The translations under genes and the position numbers were made by a program. A DNA stretch of 64,000 nucleotides from Novipirellula herctigrandis (lineage in GTDB: Bacteria > Planctomycetota > Planctomycetia > Pirellulales > Pirellulaceae), in NCBI GenBank assembly GCA_007859835.1, contig SJPJ01000001.1:7046504-7110503 (forward strand), written 5' to 3'. Of the stretch, positions 34,919 through 49,033 are shown piece by piece; positions within the stretch are counted from its first letter, which is position 1, and the number at the start of each line of letters is the position of its first letter. The notes beneath the pieces were generated by a model. It saw nothing but the letters and a program-made list of their open reading frames with translations. It was not told the origin of the DNA and searched no databases.

Positions 34919-36190
34919 TCAGGCGGCGATAGTGGCAATTTGATTTGCCTTGCGGATTCTTGCGGAGCCGGGGCGGCGGGCCAGGAAGCGGGCCAGGCGA
35001 TCGTCGTCGCTCAGCGAAGCCGCTCGGATTTGCAGGATCGCTTCGGCACCGGCCGGATGGTTCCAAAACATCTCCGTCCCCTTCGTTCGGTAGTTGATTT
35101 CCTTTACCGCCGACTCCATCCACGCACTCGTCGTCGGTAGACCCTCGCAGCGATATCGAGCGTAGTGCATCCGATCGAGGTTGTTTTTCAAGTAGCCGAT
35201 GATCTGCCGAAGCTGCGCGCGCGGATCATCCTCGCCCGCATCGGCCGGAGCCTCTCCCAGTCGAGATTGATGAACCAACCGTTCCTCGATCACCTCGGCG
35301 ACCTTACCCTGCCAAGTTAGAATCATCCAACGCTTATAGTTCTCCCAAGCCTCGACGCCTTGTCCAAAACAGGCGATCGAACCACGGTGGAGGTAACTCA
35401 CCGCGTGAGTGAAATCGAGAATCGCAACGTCGCCACGGAAGTGCTCGGCGTGGATCGTCCAGTTACAACTCAAACCGTCCGCGACGAACACACGGCGTGA
35501 CGCTTGGTCGAACTTGCGACGCCTCGCTTCCCGGTCCATTTGCACGCCGAACACTCTCGAGTTTCGCATGCTTGAGATCAACGTCCTGTGAATCTTCTTG
35601 GGTTTGTGTTTGGGCTGCCTGCGTTTGCCGGGTTGCTTCGGCGGTGATTTCTGACTTCCAAGCAACGGGCTGTCTCGACCGGCGTTTTCCTTGGTTTTTG
35701 CAGTCTCAGTCAGTCCCGCGACGTGATTGCGATTGAGAAAGCATGAGGGCGGACGTGGCTGAGGATCGCTACTGGACGTGTCGCTCGATGCGCTGACGAA
35801 GATCGCGTTCTTGGTTTCGTTCCAGCCGGTGCATTCGAGATGAATGCCGGGACCACAATTGGCTTTGCGAGTCCGGATGCGTCCCCCATCACAGCTGACG
35901 ACCGCGACTTGCGGCAGCACCGCTTCGCCATCGAGAATGCCTTGCCAGTCGTGCTCGGCGGCGGAGGCCAATTCATCGCCGACTTCCATGCAGATCCGCT
36001 CGATGGTGTTGGCCGAAACTTTCAATCCATTGACACGCTCGAGCAAGAGCGAGGCCCGTTTGAACGATCGGGTTTCGCCGTTGGTGAAGATGAGTTGGCG
36101 CTTGAATCCCGGGGTGGAGTGGCGGCTATCGAAGCCCATTTTTGTCCGCTGAGGGAAAAATAGACCGTCGACAGCGACGGCAGTGGGCAA
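34919..36190 (-). CDS. ISKra4-like transposase, catalytic part (orfB)
   Basis: The frame begins effectively at FFPQRTKMGFDSRHSTPGF, continuing in the next frame the protein encoded by the upstream orfA. It carries QVAVVSCDGGRIRTRKA, DFTHAVSYLHRG and TTSAWMESAVKEINYRTKG then TEMFW, the catalytic and C-terminal signatures of ISKra4 transposases. The two frames overlap by 65 bp and a one-base change at ATTTTTCCC would join them. This is either programmed frameshifting, reported for parts of this family, or a mutation. Confidence 0.72.
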   Translation of the reverse strand: MPTAVAVDGLFFPQRTKMGFDSRHSTPGFKRQLIFTNGETRSFKRASLLLERVNGLKVSANTIERICMEVGDELASAAEHDWQGILDGEAVLPQVAVVSCDGGRIRTRKANCGPGIHLECTGWNETKNAIFVSASSDTSSSDPQPRPPSCFLNRNHVAGLTETAKTKENAGRDSPLLGSQKSPPKQPGKRRQPKHKPKKIHRTLISSMRNSRVFGVQMDREARRRKFDQASRRVFVADGLSCNWTIHAEHFRGDVAILDFTHAVSYLHRGSIACFGQGVEAWENYKRWMILTWQGKVAEVIEERLVHQSRLGEAPADAGEDDPRAQLRQIIGYLKNNLDRMHYARYRCEGLPTTSAWMESAVKEINYRTKGTEMFWNHPAGAEAILQIRAASLSDDDRLARFLARRPGSARIRKANQIATIAA

Positions 36191-36512
36191 CCGGTTCGGT
36201 CAGTTCGATGGGGCCGTCCATCGAACTGACCGGGCGAGGTTCGATCTCGACCTTGCACTGTTTCTTGCAGTCGGGGCAGTACACCCGGCCGAGTTCCTGC
36301 AAGGCGACTTCACGGGCACGTTCTTCTTGAATGGCGCGGCTGAAACGTTGCCCGAGTGCGTGAGCGGGCAGCTCGATCTGATCAAAGTGTGGGACTTCGT
36401 CGCCTTGCTCAAGGGCTTGGATTTCCGCCGCAACCCGGGTGGCTTCTTTGAGGTGGTGGTCGAGTTTTTCCTTCAGCCGTGCTTCGTTCGCGTCCATGCG
36501 ATTGTCTCCCAA
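36126..36512 (-). CDS. ISKra4-like transposase, N-terminal part (orfA)
   Basis: A 128-codon frame with a coiled N terminus (LKEKLDHHLKEATRVAAEIQ) and a zinc-ribbon-like region (YCPDCKKQC and HCRRCRRS). CRRCRR directly before FFP is the usual order in full-length ISKra4 transposases, so the protein is split exactly after this ribbon. With orfB it makes about 520 residues. It may still be translated as one protein by shifting in the T run at about 36157. Confidence 0.7.
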   Translation of the reverse strand: MGDNRMDANEARLKEKLDHHLKEATRVAAEIQALEQGDEVPHFDQIELPAHALGQRFSRAIQEERAREVALQELGRVYCPDCKKQCKVEIEPRPVSSMDGPIELTEPVAHCRRCRRSIFPSADKNGLR

Positions 36513-36793: not shown

Positions 36794-37543
36794 TCAGAGT
36801 GTTCCGCAAACAGGACAATCGGGGCGGCGAACTGCCGGGATGCGTTGAAAAGTCATGTTACGTGAGTCGTAATACAGGAGCGTTCCCGCCAGTGTTTTTC
36901 CCAATCCGGTGATCACCTTCACGCCTTCCACCGCCGCAATCGAGGCGGCCATGGCTGACACCGCACCAAGCACCGGGAATTGCCGTTTCCATTGTGGAGG
37001 ATTTTTGGGATAGAGACACGCCAAACAAGGCGTTTCTCCTGGAACAATTGTGGTTACCTGACCCTCCATATCAAACATCGCAGCTTCGATCATCGGCTTT
37101 CTCAGCTCAACGCAGGCCCGGTTCATCGCAAACCGTTCGGGAAAAAGTGGCGCACAGTCAAAGACGATGTCCGCCTGAGAAACCAGCGAACAGGCATTCT
37201 CATCGGAGATATTTTCTGGGATCGCGACAACATCCATCCGAGGATTCAGTTCCAGCAGACGGCGCCGAGCACTTTCGACCCGCGGCTTGCCGAGCCAATC
37301 GTGCGTCATAAGAATCTGACGATTGAGGTCGCTGGGTTTGACGTTCCCGGCGTGGGCGATAATTAGTCGGCCAATTCCTGCCGAAGCAAGATGGTAGCTA
37401 AGCGGACTGCCGAGCCCGCCGCAGCGACTCACAAGCGCAGTCGCACCCTTCAATTTCTGCTGCCCCGTTTCCCCAAAGCCATCAATCCACATCTGCCATT
37501 CGTAGACAGCTTTTTCTTCTTCATTCAAAGCAAGCGGATTCAC
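36794..37543 (-). CDS. E1-like adenylyltransferase (MoeB/ThiF family)
   Basis: The GTG at 37543 is taken as start because AGGAGG lies just before it, inside the end of the MoaD gene. The product (~249 residues) has the Rossmann nucleotide loop CGGLGSPLSYHLASAG, DLNRQILMTH (the arginine that contacts ATP), and a zinc site from CLAC and CPVC. MoeB and ThiF enzymes adenylate the C-terminal glycine of MoaD or ThiS. The gene lies 1 bp after a MoaD-like gene ending in Gly-Gly, its likely substrate. Last gene of the operon. Confidence 0.88.
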   Translation of the reverse strand: MNPLALNEEEKAVYEWQMWIDGFGETGQQKLKGATALVSRCGGLGSPLSYHLASAGIGRLIIAHAGNVKPSDLNRQILMTHDWLGKPRVESARRRLLELNPRMDVVAIPENISDENACSLVSQADIVFDCAPLFPERFAMNRACVELRKPMIEAAMFDMEGQVTTIVPGETPCLACLYPKNPPQWKRQFPVLGAVSAMAASIAAVEGVKVITGLGKTLAGTLLYYDSRNMTFQRIPAVRRPDCPVCGTL

Positions 37544-37544
37544 A

Positions 37545-37814
37545 TCAACCTCCTGCCACGGGGCTGAAGACTTGCACCTGGTCACCATCACTTAGAACAG
37601 CATCCTGCGGTGCGGGCACATCATTGATCACAAACATGATAACCGGACGCAGTGCCCCCGAATCATCAAACAGCATCGCATTGAAATCTTCTCCATGGTC
37701 AACAGCTTGAAGGGATTGCAGTGCGGTCGCGCCGTTTGGAACCTCAACCGTTTCGGACTCGGTGCCTGCCTTCTGTCGGATTTGAGCGTAATAGCGAAGT
37801 GTTATTTTTGTCAT
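37545..37814 (-). CDS. MoaD/ThiS-like sulfur carrier protein
   Basis: An 89-residue ubiquitin-like protein, MTKITLRYYAQIRQKAGTES and on, ending SPVAGG. The C-terminal di-glycine is needed for adenylation and thiocarboxylate formation, and VFVINDVP/LSDGDQVQVF-type blocks match MoaD. The start at 37814 overlaps the stop of the preceding ThiS-ThiF gene (ATGA). It differs from housekeeping MoaD in lying between two E1 enzymes and far from other moa genes. MoaD of molybdopterin synthase would need a MoaE, which is not in this operon. Confidence 0.85.
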   Translation of the reverse strand: MTKITLRYYAQIRQKAGTESETVEVPNGATALQSLQAVDHGEDFNAMLFDDSGALRPVIMFVINDVPAPQDAVLSDGDQVQVFSPVAGG

Positions 37815-38617
37815 ACGGTTCCTTCTACAATTAAGCGCAAAGCCAAATTGGCTTGCATGGAGGCGGCAATTCCAACTCGCGGCGCCATCAGTCCACACCC
37901 CGGTCTCGCACCGGTTTCGAGATCACCCACCACAAAAATGTTCTTGCCCATTTTCTGAACGCCAATGGTTTCTTCCGGCCCCAAACCAGCAAGTCCGGAA
38001 GCGGCGATCAGCGGAATATTGGGACGGCCTGCGGAGAAGTTTTGCATTAGCATCACCTTCTGATCGGCGCGATCAAATGCCTCGACCATCACATCGATTT
38101 CTCCAAAGATTGGAAAGAGATTCTCGGGCGTCAGTCGGACGGGATGAGCTTCGAGCTGAACATACGGGTTAATTCGACGCACATTGGTAACAAGGGCATC
38201 GGTTTTGAGCAACCCAATTTGATCCACAAAGTATTGTTGGCGGTTTAGGTTACTTGGTTCCACCACATCGAAATCGGCGAGAACCAATTTGCCAATTCCG
38301 ACACGAGCAAGAGCGACCGCGATGACCGAACCAAGTCCACCAAGCCCCGCAATGCCGACCGTAGCGGATTTGACTTTTTCATGAACACCAGGCGTGTGAC
38401 GCGCGGCGATAAGCGATTCGAGTTCATCTTCGGACGGCACCACACCACGTTGAATAAGGCAGACCTCATCGCCGTTGGACAACCGCACATCCTGACTCAT
38501 TGCTGCACCATTGAGGATCACAATGTCAGCCTCTGGTCTAACCGCATCGCGCAGGCCAAACAGGGTTGCGCCGTCCTCTGCTTCAAAGGTTCGTTCATTC
38601 AGCTTGATGTTCAGCAC
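37811..38617 (-). CDS. ThiS-like domain fused to ThiF adenylyltransferase
   Basis: Residues 1-~65 (MLNIKLNERTFEAEDGATLF, DIVILNGAAM, LSNGDEVCLIQRG) have a ThiS-like ubiquitin fold but lack a terminal Gly-Gly. Residues ~80-268 are the ThiF domain: GIAGLGGLGSVIAVALARVG, ADFDVVEPSNLNRQQYF, VMVEAFDRADQK. No CxxC zinc pair is present. Fused ThiS-like/ThiF proteins are known in thiamine-type pathways of some anaerobes. Here it overlaps MoaD at one end and TauE at the other by 23 bp, so expression is strictly coupled. Which carrier it serves is unknown. Confidence 0.85.
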   Translation of the reverse strand: MLNIKLNERTFEAEDGATLFGLRDAVRPEADIVILNGAAMSQDVRLSNGDEVCLIQRGVVPSEDELESLIAARHTPGVHEKVKSATVGIAGLGGLGSVIAVALARVGIGKLVLADFDVVEPSNLNRQQYFVDQIGLLKTDALVTNVRRINPYVQLEAHPVRLTPENLFPIFGEIDVMVEAFDRADQKVMLMQNFSAGRPNIPLIAASGLAGLGPEETIGVQKMGKNIFVVGDLETGARPGCGLMAPRVGIAASMQANLALRLIVEGTV

Positions 38618-39014
38618 TCGGCGTCTCCCCTTCCGGACGATTCCGACATGAATTCACAAGGATGTTGATTCCCACCACGATTATAAAGCAGGCAAACATT
38701 CGCTTAAGCACTATATCGGGAATGCCGAAGACAATTTGGGAACCGACAATCGCACCCAACACCCCGCCGACGGCGACAATCGCCGCTACGGACAAATCGA
38801 GGTGAATGTCGGGATTAAAGTGATAGCGCATCGCCCCAGCAAATGCCATTGGCACCATGACCGCAAGCGCCATCCCCTGCGAGTCTTTTTGGCCAAACCC
38901 GAACGCGATGCTCAATAATGGCACTAGCAGGATTCCTGCCCCGACACCGAACATGGAACTTAGAAGTCCGGCCGCGATGCCGCCCAATACATACCAAACC
39001 CACATATCCATCAC
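38595..39014 (-). CDS. half-size TauE/SafE family membrane protein
   Basis: A 139-residue protein with four hydrophobic segments (VWYVLGGIAAGLLSSMFG, GILLVPLLSIAFGFG, LSVAAIVAVGGVLGAIVG, MFACFIIVVGINILV). The motif GGIAAGLLSSMFGVGAGILL is the repeat signature of TauE/SafE exporters of sulfite and organosulfonates, which normally contain two such repeats in ~250 residues. This protein is one repeat long and would have to dimerise. It overlaps the ABC ATPase gene upstream by 4 bp and the ThiS-ThiF gene downstream by 23 bp. Confidence 0.82.
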   Translation of the reverse strand: MMDMWVWYVLGGIAAGLLSSMFGVGAGILLVPLLSIAFGFGQKDSQGMALAVMVPMAFAGAMRYHFNPDIHLDLSVAAIVAVGGVLGAIVGSQIVFGIPDIVLKRMFACFIIVVGINILVNSCRNRPEGETPSAEHQAE

Positions 39015-39655
39015 GCTCCTTCCTTTTGTATTTTCCCGTCTCGCAAAACGAAAACGACATCGGCCATCTCTCGGGCTTCCTCTGCATTATGCGTAACATG
39101 CAGCACCGTGACTCCCGATTGTTTCTGCACTCGGCGGAGTAGTTCATACATTTCGCCGCGTGTCTCCTCATCCACTGCACTGAGTGGTTCATCGAGTAGT
39201 AAGATTGCTGGATAGAACGACAAGGCACGCCCCATAGCAACACGTTGGCGTTCCCCACCGCTCAGCCCGAAGGGGCGACGCGTTAGCAAATGTTCAATCC
39301 CAAGCCACTGGGCCAACTCATCTACACGATTTTGAATCTGATCTTTAGGAAGCCGGCGAATCTCAAGGGCGAAGGCTAGATGATCGCGAACCGTCATGGT
39401 CGAAAAGAGTGCTCCATCCTGCGGAACGTAACCGATTCCTCGTGCCGCCGGGCGTTCATGCGTCACATCTCTCTCTCCGATCTGGATGGCCCCACCTTGA
39501 ACTTGCTTCAGCCCAATGATTGCTTCGAGCAGTGTCGTCTTGCCGCACCCCGTGCGTCCCATCAGCGCACCATACTCGCCAGCATTCAGCTTGAATGAAA
39601 CATCGCGTAGCACAAAGTCGCCGGCATGAACCGTTATGTTATCGACCACGATCAT
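39011..39655 (-). CDS. ABC transporter ATPase, molybdate/tungstate type
   Basis: A 214-residue ATPase with Walker A GRTGCGKTT, Q loop GYVPQDGALF, signature LSGGERQRV, Walker B ILLLDEPLS and the switch histidine in HVTHNAEEA. It is short, lacking the C-terminal MOP regulatory domain of E. coli ModC, as in Wtp/Tup transporters. It lies between the permease gene (4-bp overlap) and TauE. With these partners it powers uptake of an oxyanion. Confidence 0.87.
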   Translation of the reverse strand: MIVVDNITVHAGDFVLRDVSFKLNAGEYGALMGRTGCGKTTLLEAIIGLKQVQGGAIQIGERDVTHERPAARGIGYVPQDGALFSTMTVRDHLAFALEIRRLPKDQIQNRVDELAQWLGIEHLLTRRPFGLSGGERQRVAMGRALSFYPAILLLDEPLSAVDEETRGEMYELLRRVQKQSGVTVLHVTHNAEEAREMADVVFVLRDGKIQKEGA

Positions 39656-40512
39656 ACCATCACATCCCTTGCGCCCCAGACGCGAGTGATGAGCAATACC
39701 GATACAGCAGCGAAAACCATAATCAGCGAAACGGCGACTGCTGCTTCAAGGTCGCCAATGCTAAGTTCAAGATAAACGGTCGTCGAAAGCACTTCGGTCT
39801 TATTGCGTGTCGCTCCTGCGAAGATCAACAACGGCCCAAACTCGCCAAGGGCTCGAGCCCACGCCAACGTGAAGGCCGTAAGCATACCGCGTCCCGCTTC
39901 AGGGAGAGTTACTCGCATAAACGATTGCATGCGAGAACACCCGAGGGTAAGTGCAACCTGTTCGCAGCGTGGATTGATCTCGTCAAAAGTCGCTTTCATG
40001 GTTCGCACCGCGAACGCAGCCGCAACGGCGAACTGTGCAAGAATAACAGCCGGTATCTGATACACGACAAACTCGTTCAACGACATTCCAACAAACGGTA
40101 ATCTCGCAGTGAGCGGCCAGAATTGAAATAGAATCAACAGACTCAAACCGACAACCAACGGCGGCAGAACAATCGGAATGTCGAGGATCGCATCCAACAA
40201 GTTGCGACCGCGAAATCGGAATCGAGAAAGCAACCAACCAATGGGAACAGCGACCAACAGAGAAAGAATTGCCGAGAGCGTACACGAAATGAGGCTGAGC
40301 ATGATGGAGTAGCGGATTTCTGGCTTAGCAAGGGCCAACACCATCGGGTTTTCAAAAACAACCTCGCCCCAGCTAGCGCCCTGAACCATATAGGCGATAT
40401 CGGCAACAAGAAGAAGCAGAATCAGCAAGACATAGGATCCGCCGATGATTCCCATGCTCAGAAAAAACACGGAATCCGTTAGTCCCACGCGTTTCGTGGA
40501 TATATCTTTCAT
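39652..40512 (-). CDS. ABC transporter permease, molybdate/tungstate type
   Basis: A 286-residue membrane protein with about six helices and the MetI-like inner-membrane core: PIVLPPLVVGLSLLILF, then VRTMKATFDEINPRCEQVAL (the EAA loop that docks on the ATPase) and ARALGEFGPLLIFAGAT, a block characteristic of ModB, WtpB and CysT permeases. It overlaps both neighbours by 4 bp. Predicted to carry molybdate, tungstate or sulfate. Confidence 0.87.
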   Translation of the reverse strand: MKDISTKRVGLTDSVFFLSMGIIGGSYVLLILLLLVADIAYMVQGASWGEVVFENPMVLALAKPEIRYSIMLSLISCTLSAILSLLVAVPIGWLLSRFRFRGRNLLDAILDIPIVLPPLVVGLSLLILFQFWPLTARLPFVGMSLNEFVVYQIPAVILAQFAVAAAFAVRTMKATFDEINPRCEQVALTLGCSRMQSFMRVTLPEAGRGMLTAFTLAWARALGEFGPLLIFAGATRNKTEVLSTTVYLELSIGDLEAAVAVSLIMVFAAVSVLLITRVWGARDVMV

Positions 40513-42053
40513 TCCGTATTTTCAATGACGCTTTCACTTGGAACTATTGTGCCTTGGCTTCCCAATCGAAAGCGAAAGCCAGCTTTGACAAAGCGTTCTT
40601 CGGCTGCCGAAATATCTTTGAATAATCGACGACCGAGAAACTTATAGTCGCTTGAACATGCAATGCTAAACGGTTGGATCGCTTTGGCGTATAGCGAGTC
40701 GATGCGAACAGAATCGACCTTGTCACTTTCCGCCTTCGTGTCGGTGATGTACGAAATGGTTGCATCAACGGAGTTAGTCGATACGGTCGGCACGAGCATG
40801 GATGATGAGGCTGTTTGCATCACAACATTTTTCATAACTTGGTCATAAACGCCCATCTTTTCCAGCATGATGCGGGTCAGCGCTCCGATGGTGCATTGTT
40901 CAGGCTGACCGACGGAAATTCGCATTCCGTCTTTCGCTAGATCCGCGATACCCTGAATATTTTTCGGGTTGCCTTTTGGAACCGCAATCACGATATCAGC
41001 CTCGGAAATGTCGACGTCTTCCTGGAACCAGTCGCGAACGTTCTCCAAATAATATCGATCGCAGGCCATGTAAACATCCGGAAACCCTGAGCCGGTTTCC
41101 TGGTTGATCGTGCGCATTTGGCCGGTCAAAATTCCGCACCCGTTATAGATCGTGTTGACCGTGGCTCCCTCGCGACATTCAAACGCTTTGATCACATCGT
41201 CCACCGCACGACGATTCACGGATCCGCAAAAGAACGTGAGCTCCGGATGCCATGCCCACTGGTCACCTTCAACGGCTTCAAACCCACGCTCTGCGAATAC
41301 GGCATTGCCAACTCGACTGTTGAGATAGCGGGCAAAACGCAGTGCGGCGGTCGGCTGTTTGCTTGAAGCGAGTACTGCCACACTAATTTGCTGGCGTGCT
41401 TCCTCGAACAACTCCACTTTCACCGCTTCAAGCTCTGGATACTGCGCCACGGTGGCGTCCCAAACGATTCCGGCGGCCACGGCACCAAGCTTGACATCAT
41501 TAGCCACCTCCGACACCGTCGGTTTAAAGACGCCGTTTTGTTCGACCTGCTTTTTCACCTGGCCCCAAACTCCCGCACTCTCAAGCAGCTTTTGAGTCTG
41601 CCGCCCAATGGAAGCAGTCCCTGGGTTTCCTAATGCAATTCGAACATCCGATCGTTTTAGATCTTCCAGGCTTCGAATGTTTTTTGGATTCCCCTTCGCC
41701 ACAACGATCACGGGACGCAGCCAAGCCAGCGGTAGTGTTTCCGCAATCAGTTCCTTCTGTGCGGCCATTTCAATATAACTCTGGTCCGCCGCAATGTAGA
41801 GGTCACCTTGGGGGGCTACCTGGATGTTGCTAAGCAGTGTGCCTGAGCCACCATACATCAACTGCACTTTCTGACCGTATTCGCGTTCGAACTGCTGTGC
41901 AAGCGGAACAACTGCGGGCTTAACACCAGCCGCGCAGTACAGCACCAGATCGGCTTGGGCCGCTCCCGTCGACTGGTCCTTCGTGGACAGCAAATACAAC
42001 GAAGCGACAAGAAGCAATGCAATACCAACGAAAGCAATTATTCCCTTATTCAT
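40509..42053 (-). CDS. tandem double ModA-type periplasmic binding protein
   Basis: A 514-residue protein with an N-terminal signal anchor (residues 1-~30) and two consecutive ModA-like domains. Domain 1 spans ~34-265 (ADLVLYCAAGVKPAV, YGGSGTLLSNI, IVVAKGNPKNIRSLEDL, ALGNPGTASIGRQTQ). Domain 2 spans ~270-490 (LTFFCGSVNRRAVDDVI, YNGCGILTGQM, IVIAVPKGNPKNIQGIADL, SVGQPEQCTIGALTR). ModA is normally a single domain of ~230 residues. The shared KGNPKNI blocks show duplication inside the gene. Two linked binding sites per transporter, perhaps with different ligands, are implied. Confidence 0.88.
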   Translation of the reverse strand: MNKGIIAFVGIALLLVASLYLLSTKDQSTGAAQADLVLYCAAGVKPAVVPLAQQFEREYGQKVQLMYGGSGTLLSNIQVAPQGDLYIAADQSYIEMAAQKELIAETLPLAWLRPVIVVAKGNPKNIRSLEDLKRSDVRIALGNPGTASIGRQTQKLLESAGVWGQVKKQVEQNGVFKPTVSEVANDVKLGAVAAGIVWDATVAQYPELEAVKVELFEEARQQISVAVLASSKQPTAALRFARYLNSRVGNAVFAERGFEAVEGDQWAWHPELTFFCGSVNRRAVDDVIKAFECREGATVNTIYNGCGILTGQMRTINQETGSGFPDVYMACDRYYLENVRDWFQEDVDISEADIVIAVPKGNPKNIQGIADLAKDGMRISVGQPEQCTIGALTRIMLEKMGVYDQVMKNVVMQTASSSMLVPTVSTNSVDATISYITDTKAESDKVDSVRIDSLYAKAIQPFSIACSSDYKFLGRRLFKDISAAEERFVKAGFRFRLGSQGTIVPSESVIENTE

Positions 42054-42114
42054 TTTCTTATATCAAATCCCAACAGCACGCTGTAAATCCAGTAATTCAT
42101 CATCTTTATCTCGA

Positions 42115-42792
42115 TCATTCTTTAATTCGTCCATCGACGAGTGACACTTTTTGCGAGGCATGTTCGAGAGCCCGGTCATCGTGGGTCACCATGACCACGA
42201 CACCGCCATTGCCGGCAAACTCTTTCATATAGTCAAGCACGATGGTCGCGTTATCCCGATCCAAGTTGCCCGTCGGCTCATCCGCGAAAAGGATGGATGC
42301 ATTGGCAAAGACAGCTCGCGCCAAGGCCAACCGCTGTTGCTCACCGACACTCAGTTCCGAAGGATGGTGCCCGGCACGAGCGGCCATGCCAAACTGTTCG
42401 AGAATGGCTTCGGCACGCTTTTTCGCATTTGCCGATTGCCCCGTCGCTACCTCAGTGACCATCAAATTACCCAACACATCGAGATAGGGTATCAAATGGA
42501 ATTGTTGGAATACAAAGCCAAGGTTGGCGGCACGAAACCTCGCTCGGTTTGAATTGTTCAGCGAATAGAGATCCTGGCCATTAATCGCAATCGTTCCAAC
42601 ATCAGGCCGGAGCAATCCACCAGCGGCCAACAACAACGTGGACTTTCCGCATCCGCTCGGTCCGTGCAGCGCCACAAACTCGCCTTTGCCAACCGACAAC
42701 GACACACCACGAAGAGCATGAACTTCACCGCGACTCCCTTTGCCGGGATAGCGTTTTTTAACGCCATTCATTTCCAACACGGACTCACTCAT
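42115..42792 (-). CDS. MacB/LolD-like ABC transporter ATPase
   Basis: A 225-residue ATPase with Walker A GPSGCGKST, signature LSVGEQQRLALARAV, Walker B ILFADEPTGNLD and the H-loop MVTHDDRALEHA. The PTGNLD block and size place it in the MacB/LolD group, which acts by mechanotransmission instead of substrate translocation. Its gene overlaps the FtsX-type permease by 8 bp, so the two form a pair. A 61-bp gap separates it from the ModA-like gene, the widest in the operon. Confidence 0.9.
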   Translation of the reverse strand: MSESVLEMNGVKKRYPGKGSRGEVHALRGVSLSVGKGEFVALHGPSGCGKSTLLLAAGGLLRPDVGTIAINGQDLYSLNNSNRARFRAANLGFVFQQFHLIPYLDVLGNLMVTEVATGQSANAKKRAEAILEQFGMAARAGHHPSELSVGEQQRLALARAVFANASILFADEPTGNLDRDNATIVLDYMKEFAGNGGVVVMVTHDDRALEHASQKVSLVDGRIKE

Positions 42793-44062
42793 TTCTCAAC
42801 ACCTCCGCAGGATCACATTGCGCGGCGGCAAAAGCAGGGATCCAAGATGCGATGGCTGCGAACAATGGCATGCAGACCAAAACCAGGCCAAGCTCTACAG
42901 CAGATGTTAGTTCGTTGGCTGGATAGCCCGCAAACAGCGAGCCTCCTTTTTCGATGAATAGCAATGATGCCCCGATGCCGATCATGCCTCCAACCCATCC
43001 GCCAACGGCAGCCTTAAGCAGAAACGCTGTCAGAATCTTAAACGAATTCACTCCCAGGGCCAGCAGCAAGCCTACCTCGTAGACGCGTTCTTTTGCATTT
43101 AGAAACACCAACAAACCAATGCCCGCCATACAGAAGATGCCGATCAGTGGAATCAATATCGATGCCAAAGCCTCCCGCTTTTCTTTCAATCGACTCCGAC
43201 TCTCTTTCATGGATTCGATCTGTTGCCGCGCTGTGGTCTGGCCCGACTTTCGTGCCTCGGCTCTCGCCAACGCCTTACTCTCTTGCTCAATGATTTTCGT
43301 CCCTGGCAAAATCTCGCCGAGCTCTGCACGAATCTCACTCAGACGATCGATCGTTGCACAGTTGCATTCCAGTGCCAAGATGGAATTGATCTGCCCCTCT
43401 TTGTCAAAAATTTCCTGCGTCTGCTTCAGACTCATCCAAACTGTAATGTCATCTTTCGAACCGCGTTCGCCATAACACTCACGAATCTTGAACTCTCGCC
43501 CTTTCAGCGTCACCTGATCGCCGACCTCGAGTTCCAAACTGTTTTGCAACTCATATCCGACGATTAACTCGCCTTCGGGGACCGGATCCAACAGTGGCTT
43601 TTTGTTGCTTCCATGCAGTTTCGGAACTTCACCACGAATCCCAATCAAGACAATTTTTCGTTTGTATTCCGGCCAATCCGTGACTTGCGTCAATGTCGGC
43701 AACAGATGGTTCACTGTCACAATTTCCGATTGAGCCAAACGAGTAACATATTCTTCTGGCATTGTCTTTGATGCGTAGCCTTGTTCGTAGACTTCGCTCA
43801 AATCCTGTCCCTCCGGGAAAATATGGATATTGAAGCCAAGCCCTTTCATCGATACGCGAAGCTCGTCCTCTAGCTTGGCCATCTCTGCTTCGGTCTCTGC
43901 CACTTTCTCATTAATCAACCGGCTGGTTTCCAAATCCGTACTGCGCAGTAGCGATATTGATACGAGAAAGGTTGCCGCGGCGACCGCTGCCGCCAAAATC
44001 GAAAGCGCAAAGTTAAGCTTTCGATGTCCGATCTCCTTTCGGATCAGAGTGAAAACATTCAC
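42785..44062 (-). CDS. MacB/FtsX-type ABC transporter permease
   Basis: 425 residues with the FtsX layout: one N-terminal helix (FALSILAAAVAAATFLVSIS), a large periplasmic domain of ~270 residues containing a coiled segment (INEKVAETEAEMAKLEDEL) and a Cys pair (LALECNCATI), then three C-terminal helices (LIPLIGIFCMAGIGLLVFLN and on) with ERVYEVGLLLALGV. The last helix ends CDPAEVLRNE, as in MacB-type permeases. It works with the preceding ATPase and probably the secreted protein encoded just upstream. Confidence 0.88.
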   Translation of the reverse strand: MNVFTLIRKEIGHRKLNFALSILAAAVAAATFLVSISLLRSTDLETSRLINEKVAETEAEMAKLEDELRVSMKGLGFNIHIFPEGQDLSEVYEQGYASKTMPEEYVTRLAQSEIVTVNHLLPTLTQVTDWPEYKRKIVLIGIRGEVPKLHGSNKKPLLDPVPEGELIVGYELQNSLELEVGDQVTLKGREFKIRECYGERGSKDDITVWMSLKQTQEIFDKEGQINSILALECNCATIDRLSEIRAELGEILPGTKIIEQESKALARAEARKSGQTTARQQIESMKESRSRLKEKREALASILIPLIGIFCMAGIGLLVFLNAKERVYEVGLLLALGVNSFKILTAFLLKAAVGGWVGGMIGIGASLLFIEKGGSLFAGYPANELTSAVELGLVLVCMPLFAAIASWIPAFAAAQCDPAEVLRNE

Positions 44063-45315
44063 AGTGGCCCCTTTTTCTTTTTAGCAATGATGAGACTTGC
44101 ACCGACAATTAAACAGAGGACTGTACCAAGTAGGATGATCATGTTTCGCCGGAGTAGGGAGGACGGTTTTGGCACCACCTGCTCTGTGAGACTCGACTGT
44201 GGCGCATCCGCCTCGGTTGCATTAGCCATTAGCGCGTCGTCCGCCGGCGCATCATCCGCCGAAACATACATCTCCGGTGCATCTGCCTCCACGTCGACCA
44301 AGTCAGCTGTTCCCGTTAACGGTGGAAGTTCCCGGTCATGCACTATTTCACTTCCTTCAAGATAGCTGTACCAATCCACGTGACTCAGCAGGTCAACGCC
44401 TGGATTCCCCGACTTGATCTGGCATGAACAGATGCCGCAGACATACATGGTCGCCATCTCGACATTGTCAGCACTGATCCCCTCGCCCACCAATGGCAAT
44501 AGAAAGCGACCGCGTCCGAAAACGGGAAACGCCATAGGCTCATCTTTGTATTCCACCAAATCCTCTTCACTGCTCATCAAAATCGCGCGAAACACCGGTT
44601 CAGCCTGCGCTTTCGTCAAACGCTTGACAGCGAAACCAATCTTCAGTGGTATGACCGAACGCAGAAAATTGGCGGGATCATAATTCGCCATCACTTCGGA
44701 TTGGGTCATCCCTCCGGTAATCTCGCCTGAAGTTTCGATCACACCGGCCGGGAGTGGAACTTCATCGGACAACCACTCCAATTTTTCGAGCAACACATCG
44801 TAGGCCTTGTCATCTCGTTCGGGGTTGCCGGAATCCACCAGCACCCATACGGCGGACGTCCCCTTCAGGATTTCCAGCGTCAGCTCTTTTACAAAGGCAC
44901 TTGAAGTCAATTTCTGAACCGTCTGATCGGTAAACGGTTCGTGGAGAATGACGGTCGGTAGATAAGAACCAAGCGGATAGAGCAGAAAAGCGGTTGGCTC
45001 GGTAATTTCCGCCACCGCCGGATAAGCCTCCAACACATCGCTATTTTCTTCATCGGTGATGTCTAGCACATGCACCATCAGGTTACAAAACCCTTCTTCC
45101 CGAACGCATTGTTGGCGAAGATCTTCCACCCATTTTTGATGTTCTTCGGACAATTCGCCGCTGACTGCTACAATCAGCCGATATTCATCGCGTTCCCAGC
45201 GTTCCAATGCATAGCGGAACACTGGCACACTGCAAGCATAGAGGTTCGTTGTTAAACCCCAAGCCAAAAGGCCCGCAAACGCAACAAATAACTTTCGATT
45301 TCGATATCTATTCAT
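44059..45315 (-). CDS. secreted membrane-anchored protein with CSVPVFRYALERW motif
   Basis: Start at 45315 with GGAGAA 3 nt upstream. Signal peptide to about Ala26 is followed at once by CSVPVFRYALERWERDEYRL, a block I recall from uncharacterised proteins of planctomycetes and related phyla. The middle contains a thioredoxin-like-sized alpha/beta region (TSAVWVLVDSGN) and a cysteine group VCGICSCQI. A long acidic linker (VDVEADAPEMYVSADDAPAD) leads to a C-terminal helix (NMIILLGTVLCLIVGASLII) with a positive tail. It is the first gene of the operon and overlaps the permease by 4 bp. Function unknown; possibly the periplasmic partner of the MacB-like transporter. Confidence 0.75.
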   Translation of the reverse strand: MNRYRNRKLFVAFAGLLAWGLTTNLYACSVPVFRYALERWERDEYRLIVAVSGELSEEHQKWVEDLRQQCVREEGFCNLMVHVLDITDEENSDVLEAYPAVAEITEPTAFLLYPLGSYLPTVILHEPFTDQTVQKLTSSAFVKELTLEILKGTSAVWVLVDSGNPERDDKAYDVLLEKLEWLSDEVPLPAGVIETSGEITGGMTQSEVMANYDPANFLRSVIPLKIGFAVKRLTKAQAEPVFRAILMSSEEDLVEYKDEPMAFPVFGRGRFLLPLVGEGISADNVEMATMYVCGICSCQIKSGNPGVDLLSHVDWYSYLEGSEIVHDRELPPLTGTADLVDVEADAPEMYVSADDAPADDALMANATEADAPQSSLTEQVVPKPSSLLRRNMIILLGTVLCLIVGASLIIAKKKKGPL

Positions 45316-45449: not shown

Positions 45450-46055
45450 TCAACGCTCGATTTTTTCCAGTTGCACTCGGTCAGTTCCATAGTGAATTCG
45501 GAACGTCTGTCCGCTACATCAAACAAGCCCGCCAGGATTTTTGAAAGTTCCCGTGACGGAAGCCCCCGCAAGGATCGTAGTCCGCTTGCCCATCGGGATG
45601 GCGGCTCCATCCGACGAACTGCACTTCAAGGTTCCATTGAGCGTGACCGCTCCTTTGACCGTTAGTGGGAGATGTTTCCCAAGTTCCAACTCGAGGGTGC
45701 CGCTCGTCGACTGATCATGGCTGCGACCATTCCGGTCCGCCCAAGTATGCCAGAGTTGAAATCCGGTCTGTTGGCAGGAACGGGAAGGCGAACAAACCGG
45801 TTTGCCATATGCATGCGAGAAATTGGTTCCTCGTTCTGCCAATGCGTCAATGTTGGGCGTAATCAGCTTTTTAATCTCGGTGGTATCCACCCCGTTGGCG
45901 GCCGCCAGTGTCTGGTTGGCCCTGATCGTGCCCCAGCCCATAACGTCCGCAAAATAGCAGACAATGTTAGGACGCGGCGCGGGTTCATCTGCCCGAGATA
46001 ATGCAAAGGACAATAGCATTAGCCCAAAGATCATTCCGATTCGCCTGGCTTTCAT
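45450..46055 (-). pseudogene. deleted sulfatase: N-terminal head joined to beta-domain tail
   Basis: It starts with a signal peptide (1-22), RPNIVCYFADVMGWG and an intact formylglycine motif CSPSR at Cys88, but after about residue 112 the sulfatase core is missing. The frame goes straight into GTLELELGKHLPLTVKGAV and TILAGASVTGTFKNPGGLV, a beta-rich tail. A TGA then interrupts the frame, after which FRIHYGTDRVQLEKIER continues to the final stop. The metal-binding C-terminal half of the sulfatase fold is absent, so no activity is expected. An internal deletion of roughly 1 kb is the simplest cause. Confidence 0.75.
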
Positions 46056-46303: not shown

Positions 46304-49033
46304 CTATTTGAACTGATAGTATTTCTTGTTTTTGATCAGTGCTTTGACCGCCTTTGCATTCTCTCTTTGAGTTGTTTTCAAACGTTCTGAGTTGTGAAGG
46401 TCCATCTCCGACTCCGCAATGCCCTCATTGCTTTGATCCTCGCGTGGACGCTTCTTTAACAACGCACCGGCGTCCTTTAGGTATGACAATGCCAATGCGC
46501 GATGCTGGTCATCTTCCATCAACGCCAACGCTGGACTTTTTTCCGGACGAGTGAAATTCACGAGATGCCCGTTCTCAAGCAGATACGGTAAGAGGCTCCC
46601 CCGCTTCGTATACTTGCCGTAGACAAGCTCGCGTTTTCGTGCGCCGTCTTCCAAAGCCAACAATGGACTACGCCCTGGATAATACGACTCATAGCGTCCG
46701 TAATAAACTGCATTGATATCGATCCAACTGGTAATCCGCTGCATCTCTTTGTCGGAGAGCTTCACATCATAATGCCCCTCCTTTAGAACGCGAACCAGTT
46801 TGCTGCGATGCGACCCCCAAGCATACGCAGGCAGAACACCGGGAGGACCGTCGCCGACAAAGTTGACCATTTTCTCTTCGGAGCCTTCGTAGCGTTGACC
46901 GGATTTCGACATCAGTTCGGTATAGGAAACATTGAACGGATAGCTCAGGTCGCCACACAGGTTCAGCTCTTTTCCGGCTTCTTGGTCGTAATCGTGACAG
47001 GCGACACAGTGCCGATCGAAAACCGGCTGCACGTCGGTGAGATAGTTGAACGGTTTGGCTTCTTCGACGCTCGGCGTGTCCAGCCAAGGCTCTAGCCGAC
47101 TCGTTGGCCGGCGCATGGCCATTGGCAATGCGTTATTGGGCATCGGCGTGGAAACACGATTCTCGTGGCAACCAATGCAACCCTGTGTTTCGCCGGGTCG
47201 TACGATGGTTGCTGATCGCATCGCTTGAATCATCTGCTTGTTTTCATCCAACGCGTGAATTTGAACGAAGGTATCAGCTGGCAATTCAAAATAGGCCGAT
47301 CCATCTTCCTCGACAGGCACATCGCCCAAGATACGTTTGTTATTGGTCAGGTTCCAATTCATGGCACCGACCTGCTGAGCATCCGTATTCCAATAGCCAC
47401 GTTCATCATAGGTCTGACGCGGTGGCGCCTCGATGATGCGTAAATACTTGATCGAGCCCCGCGAGACGTTTGTCATTTCATCTCGATCACCGATATAAAC
47501 GTCGTTTACATACAAAAAACCGTGATCCATCGTATAGTCGACCGCATCAGGAATCGCAGGAGCACGCTTGCGTGCCGCCAATGGGACGGCACCGTAAGCG
47601 CCTAACACCTCGTCGCCGGTTTCATAAACGACAATTTCGTTCCCGAAGATATCAGCGAGCATGATTGCCATCTTCCCGTTCATTTTCGAGCTGCGGTTCT
47701 CGCGTTTCCCAACCCGTTTGGACACTAAAAAGAACTGACCGCCACCGGTACCTGCTTCCAAGTCATGCACAGGATAAGGATCTTCATAGCGGGTCGGCAG
47801 CTTCTTAAAATTGTCGATAGAACCTCTAAATTTCATTGATCGATTGATTGCATCATCGCTGGGAGTCACCAACTTGCGTCCCGATTCTGGCCACATCTCG
47901 ATAATCGGCTCGAGTCCATCCATGCCCTTGGATCGATCCACCACGGCCATTGCGCCCCACGGCAGATCATGCGTGGCACCATACACACACACCACACTAT
48001 CCGTTCCCGGAATGGTCCGAGCATCGAGCATCGCGCCAGGACTCCAAGCATTGTTACCCATAAAGAGCTGATGCCGTGTGCCGTCTGGATTGCTGGTCCA
48101 AAGCCCAAGCGACGGTCCAAATTGGCGGTCCACATATTCCCAGCGGCTATAGAGAACCGTTCCATCGGGTCTTAAGCTTGCATGGAAATCGGCTAGATCA
48201 TTTTTGCTGACCTGTACAATATTTGCCCCGTCCGATTCCATCGTAAACAAGTTCAATGAAATGTGACGGTTACATTGGCAATACTTTGGATCACGCGTGG
48301 AACTGAACAAAATTTTTCCATCCGGAAGATAGATGGGATCCACATCCGAAATCATGCTTCCGAAAGTTAGCTGTTTCAAATTGCGACCGTCCACATCGAC
48401 TTCATAAAGGTGATAATCATCCGCTTTGTTCCTGCGCATGCTGAACAGAATTTTCTGCCCGTCAAAACTGACATCCGCGTCCCTGAAAATCCCGTCCGGC
48501 TCTTCCGCCAGCACCTGCTTTCGCGTCACAACCCCCGAATCTTCGATTGAGATGACATCCAATCGCCCCCCCAGACTGTGCCAGCTTTGGATTCCTCCAC
48601 TGCCGGCGGCCCGATGAATGTCACCGTTCTGGAACATGGTGTTGATCGGACCGTGATTACCCCAATATTGGTCACGTACTTCAATCAGCCAGTCGTGCCC
48701 TTTGATATGCGGATGGCTCAGCAAAGCCTCTCGCTGCAACTGATCGTAACTCTCTGATGTCGCGTCCGAGATGCTTTCAAGCCGCTTCAGGTAGTCCGTC
48801 CCGCTAGGATATTGCGTCCCAAACGTATCTTTCAAGAAAACAATCGCGTCCCGCAGCGATTCAATTGTGTTCACCCCCCGCGTCTGGGACGTATCCACCC
48901 GCGTCTGGGACGCATCCACCCGCGTCGACTCCGACGCCTTTGTCTCTCTGGATTGCTTCGCGATTCCGAAGGCCAATCCAAGCAACACGACGCAAATCGC
49001 TGGTAACCATTTTCTGTAACTGTTCATATCCAT
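46304..49033 (-). CDS. hydrazine-synthase-alpha-like c-type cytochrome with beta-propeller
   Basis: A 909-residue secreted protein; signal segment WLPAICVVLLGLAFG near residue 10. Residues ~170-400 are TolB/PD40-type propeller blades (DADVSFDGQKILFSMRR, DPIYLPDGKILFSSTRD, ASLRPDGTVLYSRW). Two c-type heme motifs follow, CIGCH and CVACH, near residues 625 and 680. This order of propeller plus diheme region is that of hydrazine-synthase alpha-like proteins, frequent in non-anammox planctomycetes. A 21-bp tandem repeat near the N terminus adds TRVDASQ/TRVDTSQ. It lies between sulfatase genes; its redox partner is unknown. Confidence 0.8.
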   Translation of the reverse strand: MDMNSYRKWLPAICVVLLGLAFGIAKQSRETKASESTRVDASQTRVDTSQTRGVNTIESLRDAIVFLKDTFGTQYPSGTDYLKRLESISDATSESYDQLQREALLSHPHIKGHDWLIEVRDQYWGNHGPINTMFQNGDIHRAAGSGGIQSWHSLGGRLDVISIEDSGVVTRKQVLAEEPDGIFRDADVSFDGQKILFSMRRNKADDYHLYEVDVDGRNLKQLTFGSMISDVDPIYLPDGKILFSSTRDPKYCQCNRHISLNLFTMESDGANIVQVSKNDLADFHASLRPDGTVLYSRWEYVDRQFGPSLGLWTSNPDGTRHQLFMGNNAWSPGAMLDARTIPGTDSVVCVYGATHDLPWGAMAVVDRSKGMDGLEPIIEMWPESGRKLVTPSDDAINRSMKFRGSIDNFKKLPTRYEDPYPVHDLEAGTGGGQFFLVSKRVGKRENRSSKMNGKMAIMLADIFGNEIVVYETGDEVLGAYGAVPLAARKRAPAIPDAVDYTMDHGFLYVNDVYIGDRDEMTNVSRGSIKYLRIIEAPPRQTYDERGYWNTDAQQVGAMNWNLTNNKRILGDVPVEEDGSAYFELPADTFVQIHALDENKQMIQAMRSATIVRPGETQGCIGCHENRVSTPMPNNALPMAMRRPTSRLEPWLDTPSVEEAKPFNYLTDVQPVFDRHCVACHDYDQEAGKELNLCGDLSYPFNVSYTELMSKSGQRYEGSEEKMVNFVGDGPPGVLPAYAWGSHRSKLVRVLKEGHYDVKLSDKEMQRITSWIDINAVYYGRYESYYPGRSPLLALEDGARKRELVYGKYTKRGSLLPYLLENGHLVNFTRPEKSPALALMEDDQHRALALSYLKDAGALLKKRPREDQSNEGIAESEMDLHNSERLKTTQRENAKAVKALIKNKKYYQFK
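48878..48925. repeat. 21-bp in-frame tandem repeat in the HzsA-like gene
   Basis: A unit of about 21 bp (cgcgtctgggacgyatccacc, allowing one variable base) is repeated a little over twice near the 5' end of the gene. It encodes the heptads TRVDASQ and TRVDTSQ just after the signal anchor, in what is likely a flexible linker, so copy number changes would be tolerated. Confidence 0.75.

Follow-up and report, generated by a model that had tools for sequence, protein, structure and literature searches.

What is the function of a ten-gene operon that joins a protein of no recognized family to two sets of ATP-binding cassette (ABC) genes and to sulfur-carrier proteins in the planctomycete Novipirellula herctigrandis? 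The operon is located on the minus strand at positions 36794-45315 of a 64,000-nucleotide stretch of contig SJPJ01000001.1 (assembly GCA_007859835.1), referred to here as the window, in a host genome of 9.5 Mb. Our analysis revealed that eight of the ten genes form part of a system which is common to Planctomycetes-Verrucomicrobia-Lentisphaerae bacteria and has apparently not been described. The reading that we tentatively prefer is that this system may import a thiophilic metal centre (molybdenum or tungsten, or another metal), load it with sulfur and re-export it for a secreted propeller protein. The genes, named g1 to g10 in the order of transcription, are the following (aa, amino acids).

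g1, 45315-44059, minus strand: 418 aa, 'CSVP' protein, no Pfam or NCBIfam family
g2, 44062-42785, minus strand: FtsX/MacB-type permease with a conserved CxC (Pfam, NCBIfam)
g3, 42792-42115, minus strand: LolD/MacB-type ATPase (Pfam, NCBIfam)
g3/g4 intergenic gap, 42054..42114, no strand: 61 bp
g4, 42053-40509, minus strand: double ModA-like binding protein, two tandem SBP_bac_11 domains
g5, 40512-39652, minus strand: ModB-like permease (NCBIfam)
g6, 39655-39011, minus strand: WtpC/ModC-like ATPase, short (214 aa) (NCBIfam)
g7, 39011-38595, minus strand: half-size TauE/SafE transporter (Pfam)
g8, 38617-37811, minus strand: ThiS-like domain fused to ThiF (thiF_fam2) (Pfam, NCBIfam)
g9, 37814-37545, minus strand: ThiS/MoaD-like carrier with terminal GG (Pfam)
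g10, 37543-36794, minus strand: ThiF/MoeB-like E1 with both CxxC pairs (Pfam, NCBIfam)

All ten open reading frames (ORFs) are intact and on the same strand. Their coordinates bear out the preliminary description of this DNA, which had reported ten overlapping minus-strand genes with one 61-bp gap: adjacent genes overlap by 4, 8, 4, 4, 1, 23 and 4 bp, and the gaps measure 1 bp (g9/g10) and 61 bp (g3/g4). Pfam and NCBIfam matches were obtained for g2-g10, g1 alone being without. The inventory given earlier holds for the two E1-like enzymes, the MacB/FtsX pair, the importer and the TauE half-transporter. Its second ubiquitin-like carrier is in fact a domain fused to g8 (which matches TIGR02354 and PRK08644 over cut-off) and does not end in GG, which leaves g9 as the only conventional carrier.

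Regarding conservation, a single-sequence search with g1 covered 392 genomes from 267 genera of the phylum and found relatives in 51 genomes and 34 genera; g4 matches, ordinary ModA included, were present in 29 of 40 relatives. A single-sequence scan of genome contigs with g1 found no relative, while a 35-row profile found hundreds: against one genome per species at least 592 stretches matched, at least 579 of them encoding g1 relatives. The best 80 of these at least 592 profile matches were kept for neighbourhood counts; their record titles include Verrucomicrobiota, Lentisphaerota, Planctomycetota, Omnitrophota and KSB1. Within 10 kb of g1, as far as the contigs reach, these 80 loci contain the propeller in 52 cases, FtsX in 48, LolD in 41, ModA in 26, ModB in 25, ModC in 20, MoeB in 18, MoaD in 14 and TauE in 2.

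A larger set of 116 loci, all fetched for g1 or g4 matches, was made up of 40 loci fetched separately and the 80 from the species collection, minus five identical ones, plus L182. It yielded g1 in 105 loci, the propeller in 68, FtsX in 63, LolD in 56, ModA in 55, ModB in 53, ModC in 45, MoeB in 29, MoaD in 20, TauE in 2 and a ThiS-ThiF fusion in none. The genes g1-g6 occur together in 25 of the 116 loci, with MoeB in 17 of those 25, and this clustering exceeds chance. Two near-identical pairs, L102/L107 and L108/L109, stay among the 116 loci but contribute to none of the 25 or the 17. Of the second pair, L109 bears a Deltaproteobacteria title, yet over 11,309 bases it shares at least 95% identity with L108, a Verrucomicrobia record, and it is probably misassigned. 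Gene order is variable, as the Mod genes stand before or after g1-g3, and MoaD/MoeB before, after or divergent, and the genes have therefore remained linked despite rearrangement. The E1/MoaD pair is a common module that can be dispensed with (among the 80 loci, MoeB is found in 18 of the 25 that have ModB). The block is thus recurrent rather than the accident of one strain. Of the unit of ten proposed earlier, eight genes recur, and g7 and g8, seen in two and none of the 116 other loci, are local extras.

In addition, g1 and the tandem form of the binding protein follow each other across genomes. Among 78 genomes, partly picked for having g1 or g4, g1 was found by profile in 42 and the tandem protein in 40, all 40 within the 42, and 36 genomes had neither (Fisher p 3e-20, with kinship and genome choice uncorrected). 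A tandem hit was defined as a match with E no higher than 1e-20 that extends as far as query residue 225, a rule set after seeing the matches, and it leaves out genome G257 (E 6e-23, ending at residue 186, 300-aa frame). The two genomes with g1 only are G353 and G284, the latter with two separate binding proteins; in eight further genomes, G284 included, the matches to the binding-protein query were classed as ordinary or separate single-domain. Weak g1 matches were those of G416 (2e-11), G405 (4e-6) and G353 (3e-4), and dropping that of G405 would leave one tandem genome outside the g1 set. G137 and G194 each have two copies of both genes.

As far as alignments can tell, system-specific cysteines are present in g1, the propeller, the binding protein and the two permeases. 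The sequence of g1 comprises a signal peptide, C28-x-VPVFRYALERW, C296-x-C298...NPGxD and a C-terminal membrane helix, as predicted for a membrane-anchored periplasmic protein. Its C28, C296 and C298 are invariant in two partly overlapping alignments (58/58 and 35/35). The g1 profile matched no solved structure by sequence at E up to 1. An AlphaFold2 model from 58 rows (mean predicted local distance difference test, pLDDT, 83.9; predicted template modelling score 0.73) gave as top Foldseek matches multi-domain thioredoxin-fold entries (ERp57 complex, protein disulfide isomerase (PDI)-like, QSOX1 and calsequestrin), none with E ≤0.001. We tentatively read the model as a tandem thioredoxin-like fold.

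The FtsX match of g2 (25.0 bits) falls just below the 25.5 cut-off, and all g2/g3 matches lie below equivalog cut-offs, which makes the pair one of the FtsX/LolD kind but not MacB or LolCDE themselves; the NCBIfam matches of g3, like those of g5 and g6, are the best 25 of longer lists. The CxC of g2 (C233, C235) sits between the first and last membrane parts. Its two cysteines are conserved in 56/56 and 55/56 sequences and H119 in 56/56 (48/48, 47/48 and 48/48 with near-copies removed). Six permease-like ORFs from two other clusters, four of them close kin, do not have the motif.

The oxyanion importer proposed earlier was recovered with one correction, g4 being a double and not a single binding protein. 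It scores 133 bits against modA (TIGR01256; curated cut-off 62.5), and g5 and g6 match importer families under equivalog cut-offs. An N-terminal membrane helix precedes domain 1 of g4, which best matches solved molybdate binders and has S70 at what we take to be the ligand-site Ser position. In domain 2 the aligned residue is C306, accompanied by C331. Both cysteines are found in 49/51 sequences (48/50 without near-copies), and C40 in 46/51. In AbModA the backbone of S66 contacts molybdate (PMC11734730). By our own reading of the motif, S70 would be this Ser position of ordinary ModA. In g5, C77 and C192 are each present in 29/30 sequences, and both are missing from 7/7 ordinary ModB proteins of the own and related genomes. 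Elsewhere N. herctigrandis encodes ordinary Mod proteins in an operon of their own; at the aligned places this ModA and ModB have none of these cysteines, and g4-g6 therefore need not serve molybdenum cofactor (Moco) synthesis. The ATPase g6 is without the C-terminal part of the WtpC/ModC families. The terminal GG of g9, one of three ThiS-family matches in the own genome, is kept in 22/22 sequences. Both CxxC pairs of g10, which we take to be the zinc pairs of the E1 family, are kept in 24/24.

The partner that had been overlooked is a secreted propeller of the pyrroloquinoline quinone (PQQ) type, mostly 1,200-1,500 aa long where whole. The own genome has 10 propeller-matching places in 9.5 Mb, from which we roughly estimate a chance of about 2% of finding one within 10 kb of g1, versus the 52 of 80 loci observed, a count that takes in weak, partial and distant matches on either strand. 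The place 33 kb from g1 in the own genome encodes 1,431 aa and is 59% identical to the 1323-residue query along residues 47-1214. A fasciclin-like gene, recognized by eye (L172 38-1246), stands directly before it. The preliminary description had considered a link to tungsten aldehyde oxidoreductase (AOR). No AFOR_C match was found in the own genome, with 5 of 14 control genomes positive, and AOR was rejected as the partner on this ground. Judged by size and opening residues, with no family search made, none of the recurrent neighbour clusters listed looks like an AOR. Clustering and a by-eye look at the neighbours gave no convincing recurrent extra cytoplasmic enzyme beside the core; neighbours that we take for DUF1501, cytochrome and cyclophilin genes look like lineage background.

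A PF13360 match and Foldseek both indicate a PQQ-type propeller fold, the model (pLDDT 70.5) resembling BamB (E 1e-16), tetrathionate hydrolase and PQQ dehydrogenases. Read by eye, the protein of the own genome has a Rossmann-like insert and a signal of the Sec type. All 17 aligned propellers share five Cys (C111, C945, C983, C1003 and C1005; L116 numbering) and seven His; they had been chosen by the CxC..YQNQ motif, so that the invariance is circular for C1003 and C1005 and not for the others. By eye, longer divergent propellers keep a C...C...CxC pattern, in some of them mid-protein. Invariant residues are densest (0.45 and 0.40 versus 0.10-0.17) in two stretches that are among the worst modelled. 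Poor modelling would be expected there if these stretches wrapped an unmodelled cofactor, and is compatible with a missing cofactor and also with too shallow an alignment. Export through the twin-arginine translocation (Tat) pathway was rejected: a simple pattern found the Tat motif in 0 of the 45 propellers with a readable start (31 of 76 propeller ORFs, without one, were dropped), which makes export of the protein folded around a cofactor unlikely.

Two further observations concern the propeller genes. In L116 (13362-16952) and relatives the insert appears, by eye and in the model, Rossmann- or methyltransferase-like within a non-cytoplasmic protein; S-adenosylmethionine is not expected outside the cytoplasm. 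In L127, L150, L155, L159, L163, L164, L169 and L171 the propeller is apparently split into two adjacent genes just upstream of g1; these loci are titled as Verrucomicrobiota groups, L155 being a Planctomycetes genome.

One genome is of particular relevance to function. G284 (3.1 Mb, 96% complete) carries, on one strand, binding protein-g1-g2-g3-binding protein-ModB-ModC-propeller, and its g1, FtsX and propeller keep their cysteines. It gave no match to MoaA, MoaE, ThiS/MoaD or PF00384, other Mo enzyme families not having been searched; for comparison, ThiS/MoaD was found in 16 of 17 genomes and PF00384 in 14 of 18. Since the core operon exists there without pterin genes, the importer can, in this one genome, serve something besides the pterin cofactor. 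Its two binding proteins have no counterparts of C306 and C331, and hence neither MoaD/MoeB nor these pocket cysteines are essential everywhere.

From the conserved unit, the co-occurrence, the cysteines and the protein families, all read from sequence, we infer a cargo, a direction and the propeller as acceptor. The importer g4-g6 would take up an oxyanion, most simply molybdate or tungstate, and the MoaD-thiocarboxylate formed by g9 and g10 would turn it into a sulfur-bound, thiophilic form in the cytoplasm. The FtsX/LolD pair (g2, g3) would then move this form, or its sulfur, over the inner membrane via its CxC, and g1 would receive the cargo on C28/CxC and deliver it to the propeller's Cys site. 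Oxyanion uptake tied to the assembly or export of a sulfur-containing product, as suggested before our analysis, is in this form still the interpretation we favour.

Several observations weigh against this import and re-export scheme. Neither FtsX nor ModB is near g1 in 30 of the 80 loci, and the propeller is unmatched in 28 of the 80, many of them cut by contig ends. The tie between propeller and g1 is known from neighbourhood counts, with the breadth of the count noted above, and in the own genome the propeller lies at a distance of 33 kb; the partial circularity of its cysteine invariance belongs here as well. Furthermore, the two binding proteins of G284 are without counterparts of C306 and C331, and the lack of ThiS/MoaD in this genome means that the sulfur step is dispensable or otherwise supplied there. 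Lastly, we know of no FtsX-type pair that carries metals.

An opposite direction of transport is the alternative that survives best, although we consider it to be on the unlikely side. The propeller would capture a thiophilic metal, FtsX/LolD and g1 would release it mechanically, as LolCDE and FtsEX are thought to work, and domains 2 and then 1 of the binding protein would pass it to the Mod-type permease, MoaD/MoeB serving a cytoplasmic use. The importer cysteines (g4 domain 2, g5) suit a thiophilic ligand from outside, the tightest co-occurrence is that of g1 with the binding protein, and MoaD/MoeB are dispensable, as G284 indicates. However, domain 1 keeps by sequence an oxyanion-type pocket, needless for a naked metal cation, and 55 of the 80 g1 loci have no ModB nearby, though many are cut.

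A more doubtful possibility is thiol housekeeping, in which a PDI-like g1 and the CxC of g2 would keep the propeller cysteines reduced or correctly paired, FtsX/LolD would export a thiol like CydDC, and the Mod and MoaD/MoeB genes would be a separate adjoining module. The weakly indicated thioredoxin-like fold of g1 is in line with this, as are 14 of the 80 loci with FtsX and neither ModB nor propeller, and 11 with FtsX and propeller and no ModB. Nevertheless, g1 has a CxC and the lone C28 and no CxxC redox motif, and it co-occurs so nearly perfectly with the tandem binding protein that the Mod module can hardly be called separate.

We give little credence to an ordinary second pterin outfit for Mo/W, composed of an extra importer and MoaD/MoeB, with g1-g3 as unrelated neighbours. 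Pterin synthesis is certainly common, since MoaA and MoaE were each found in 60 of 62 genomes, and AOR-linked MoaD/MoeB clusters have been described (PMC1779556). On the other hand, the own genome has no AOR and has its separate Mod operon, and a ThiS-family gene stands beside moaE in G048, G227, G392, G397 and G121; in G048 and G227 the block MoaD is present as well, so that the extra MoaD/MoeB appears distinct from the main Moco genes. The core operon of G284 also speaks against a pterin outfit. The two genomes without both MoaA and MoaE are G284 and G357, and the latter has no g1. As moaA and moaE can be neighbours (G048), one assembly gap could hide both, an explanation made less likely by the additional absence of MoaD and PF00384 from G284. 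Another MoaA search left 11 of the 62 genomes without MoaA, G284 and G357 among them. As candidates for Moco-free genomes the others were set aside, most being incomplete or of unstated completeness and 7 of the 11 having a PF00384 match, so that our argument draws on G284 alone. In the own genome we noticed a further MoaA-like stretch, the second one, which contains a TGA in frame (G000:C1:7836173-7836541).

Finally, a copper-sulfur variant, with Cu(I) alone or in a Cu-Mo-S cluster as cargo and the propeller as a copper enzyme, is quite improbable. In its favour, two-Cys sites suit Cu(I), and the propeller has invariant His besides Cys, as nitrous oxide reductase has. Against it, the importer is ModABC-like, its domain 1 is closest to solved molybdate binders, and no copper gene was recognized by eye in the adjoining genes, of which no family search was made.

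Comparison with known systems places the operon between several of them. The report on AOR-linked MoaD clusters contains no such operon in the parts covered (PMC1779556), and another report has worX and thiF adjoining a tungsten oxidoreductase (PMC13328260). The likeness lies in a dedicated extra MoaD and E1, distinct from those of the main Moco set and accompanied here by a Mo/W-type importer. Unlike those clusters, the operon is without AOR, adds g1, the FtsX/LolD pair and the secreted propeller, and has a core that in one genome occurs where pterin cofactor genes are missing. In logic, the proposed route resembles NosDFY/NosL serving nitrous oxide reductase, where an ABC pair and a Cys-bearing membrane-anchored factor likewise act for a secreted beta-propeller, and where sulfide supply across the membrane by NosDFY has been suggested (PMC6530538). 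It differs in its FtsX/MacB permease, its PQQ/BamB-type propeller, its Mod-type importer and MoaD/MoeB, and neither NosD, NosL nor NosZ is among the listed Pfam/NCBIfam matches of g1-g10. The importer g4-g6 belongs to the ModABC/WtpABC/TupABC superfamily, but g4 is double with a membrane helix and a second-pocket Cys, g5 has two Cys and g6 is short. Likewise, g2 and g3 are related by sequence to MacB/LolCDE/FtsEX, but form a system with a single permease, bearing a near-invariant CxC and tied to g1. The partner protein shares its fold with the PQQ-type propellers (BamB, quinoprotein dehydrogenases, tetrathionate hydrolase), from which its length, its insert and its invariant Cys and His distinguish it.

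As for its origin, the operon looks like a mosaic by sequence comparison, with g1-g3 Lentisphaerota-like and g4 family-like, with the seam at the 61-bp gap, the one wide gap of the operon. In the g1 tree, three Lentisphaerota rows and one Verrucomicrobiota row form a 5-row set with the window row (99/90). Identity of g2 is 57-59% to three Lentisphaerota loci and 27-53% elsewhere, and that of g4 is 59% to a same-family genome and 28-42% to Lentisphaerota. Around the operon, the ISKra4-like element reported earlier could not be confirmed, since neither of its two ORFs at 34919-36512 (minus strand) matches Pfam at E 0.001. A short sulfatase-like ORF of 178 aa just upstream of g1 (45519-46055, minus strand; PF00884, E 3e-6) looks like what is left of a larger gene. 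Further upstream, 46304-49033 (minus strand) encodes a 909-aa protein that matches PF18582, the middle domain of hydrazine synthase alpha (E 3e-36). No Rfam family reached its gathering score in the whole window, and hence there is no Moco riboswitch at that threshold.

The titles and abstract beginnings searched contained no description of the system, in agreement with the earlier remark that this gene combination had none. To our knowledge, outside nitrogenase the known enzymes use Mo/W almost only via the pterin cofactor. A bolder extension of the scheme, which we regard as rather unlikely, would be a pterin-independent use of Mo/W, or of a Mo/W-sulfur cluster: a Cys-lined path of import, sulfuration and export would build a protein-thiolate centre on a Sec-exported multi-cysteine propeller across the Planctomycetes-Verrucomicrobia-Chlamydiae (PVC) bacteria, and would survive in a lineage without the pterin cofactor. 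A ModABC-type importer kept without pterin synthesis, together with the tie to g1 and the propeller, may point to a metallocofactor route not yet named. The system is widespread and present in cultured bacteria such as Lentisphaera marina, and is thus testable; it would provide a candidate role for a propeller family of PVC bacteria without known function.

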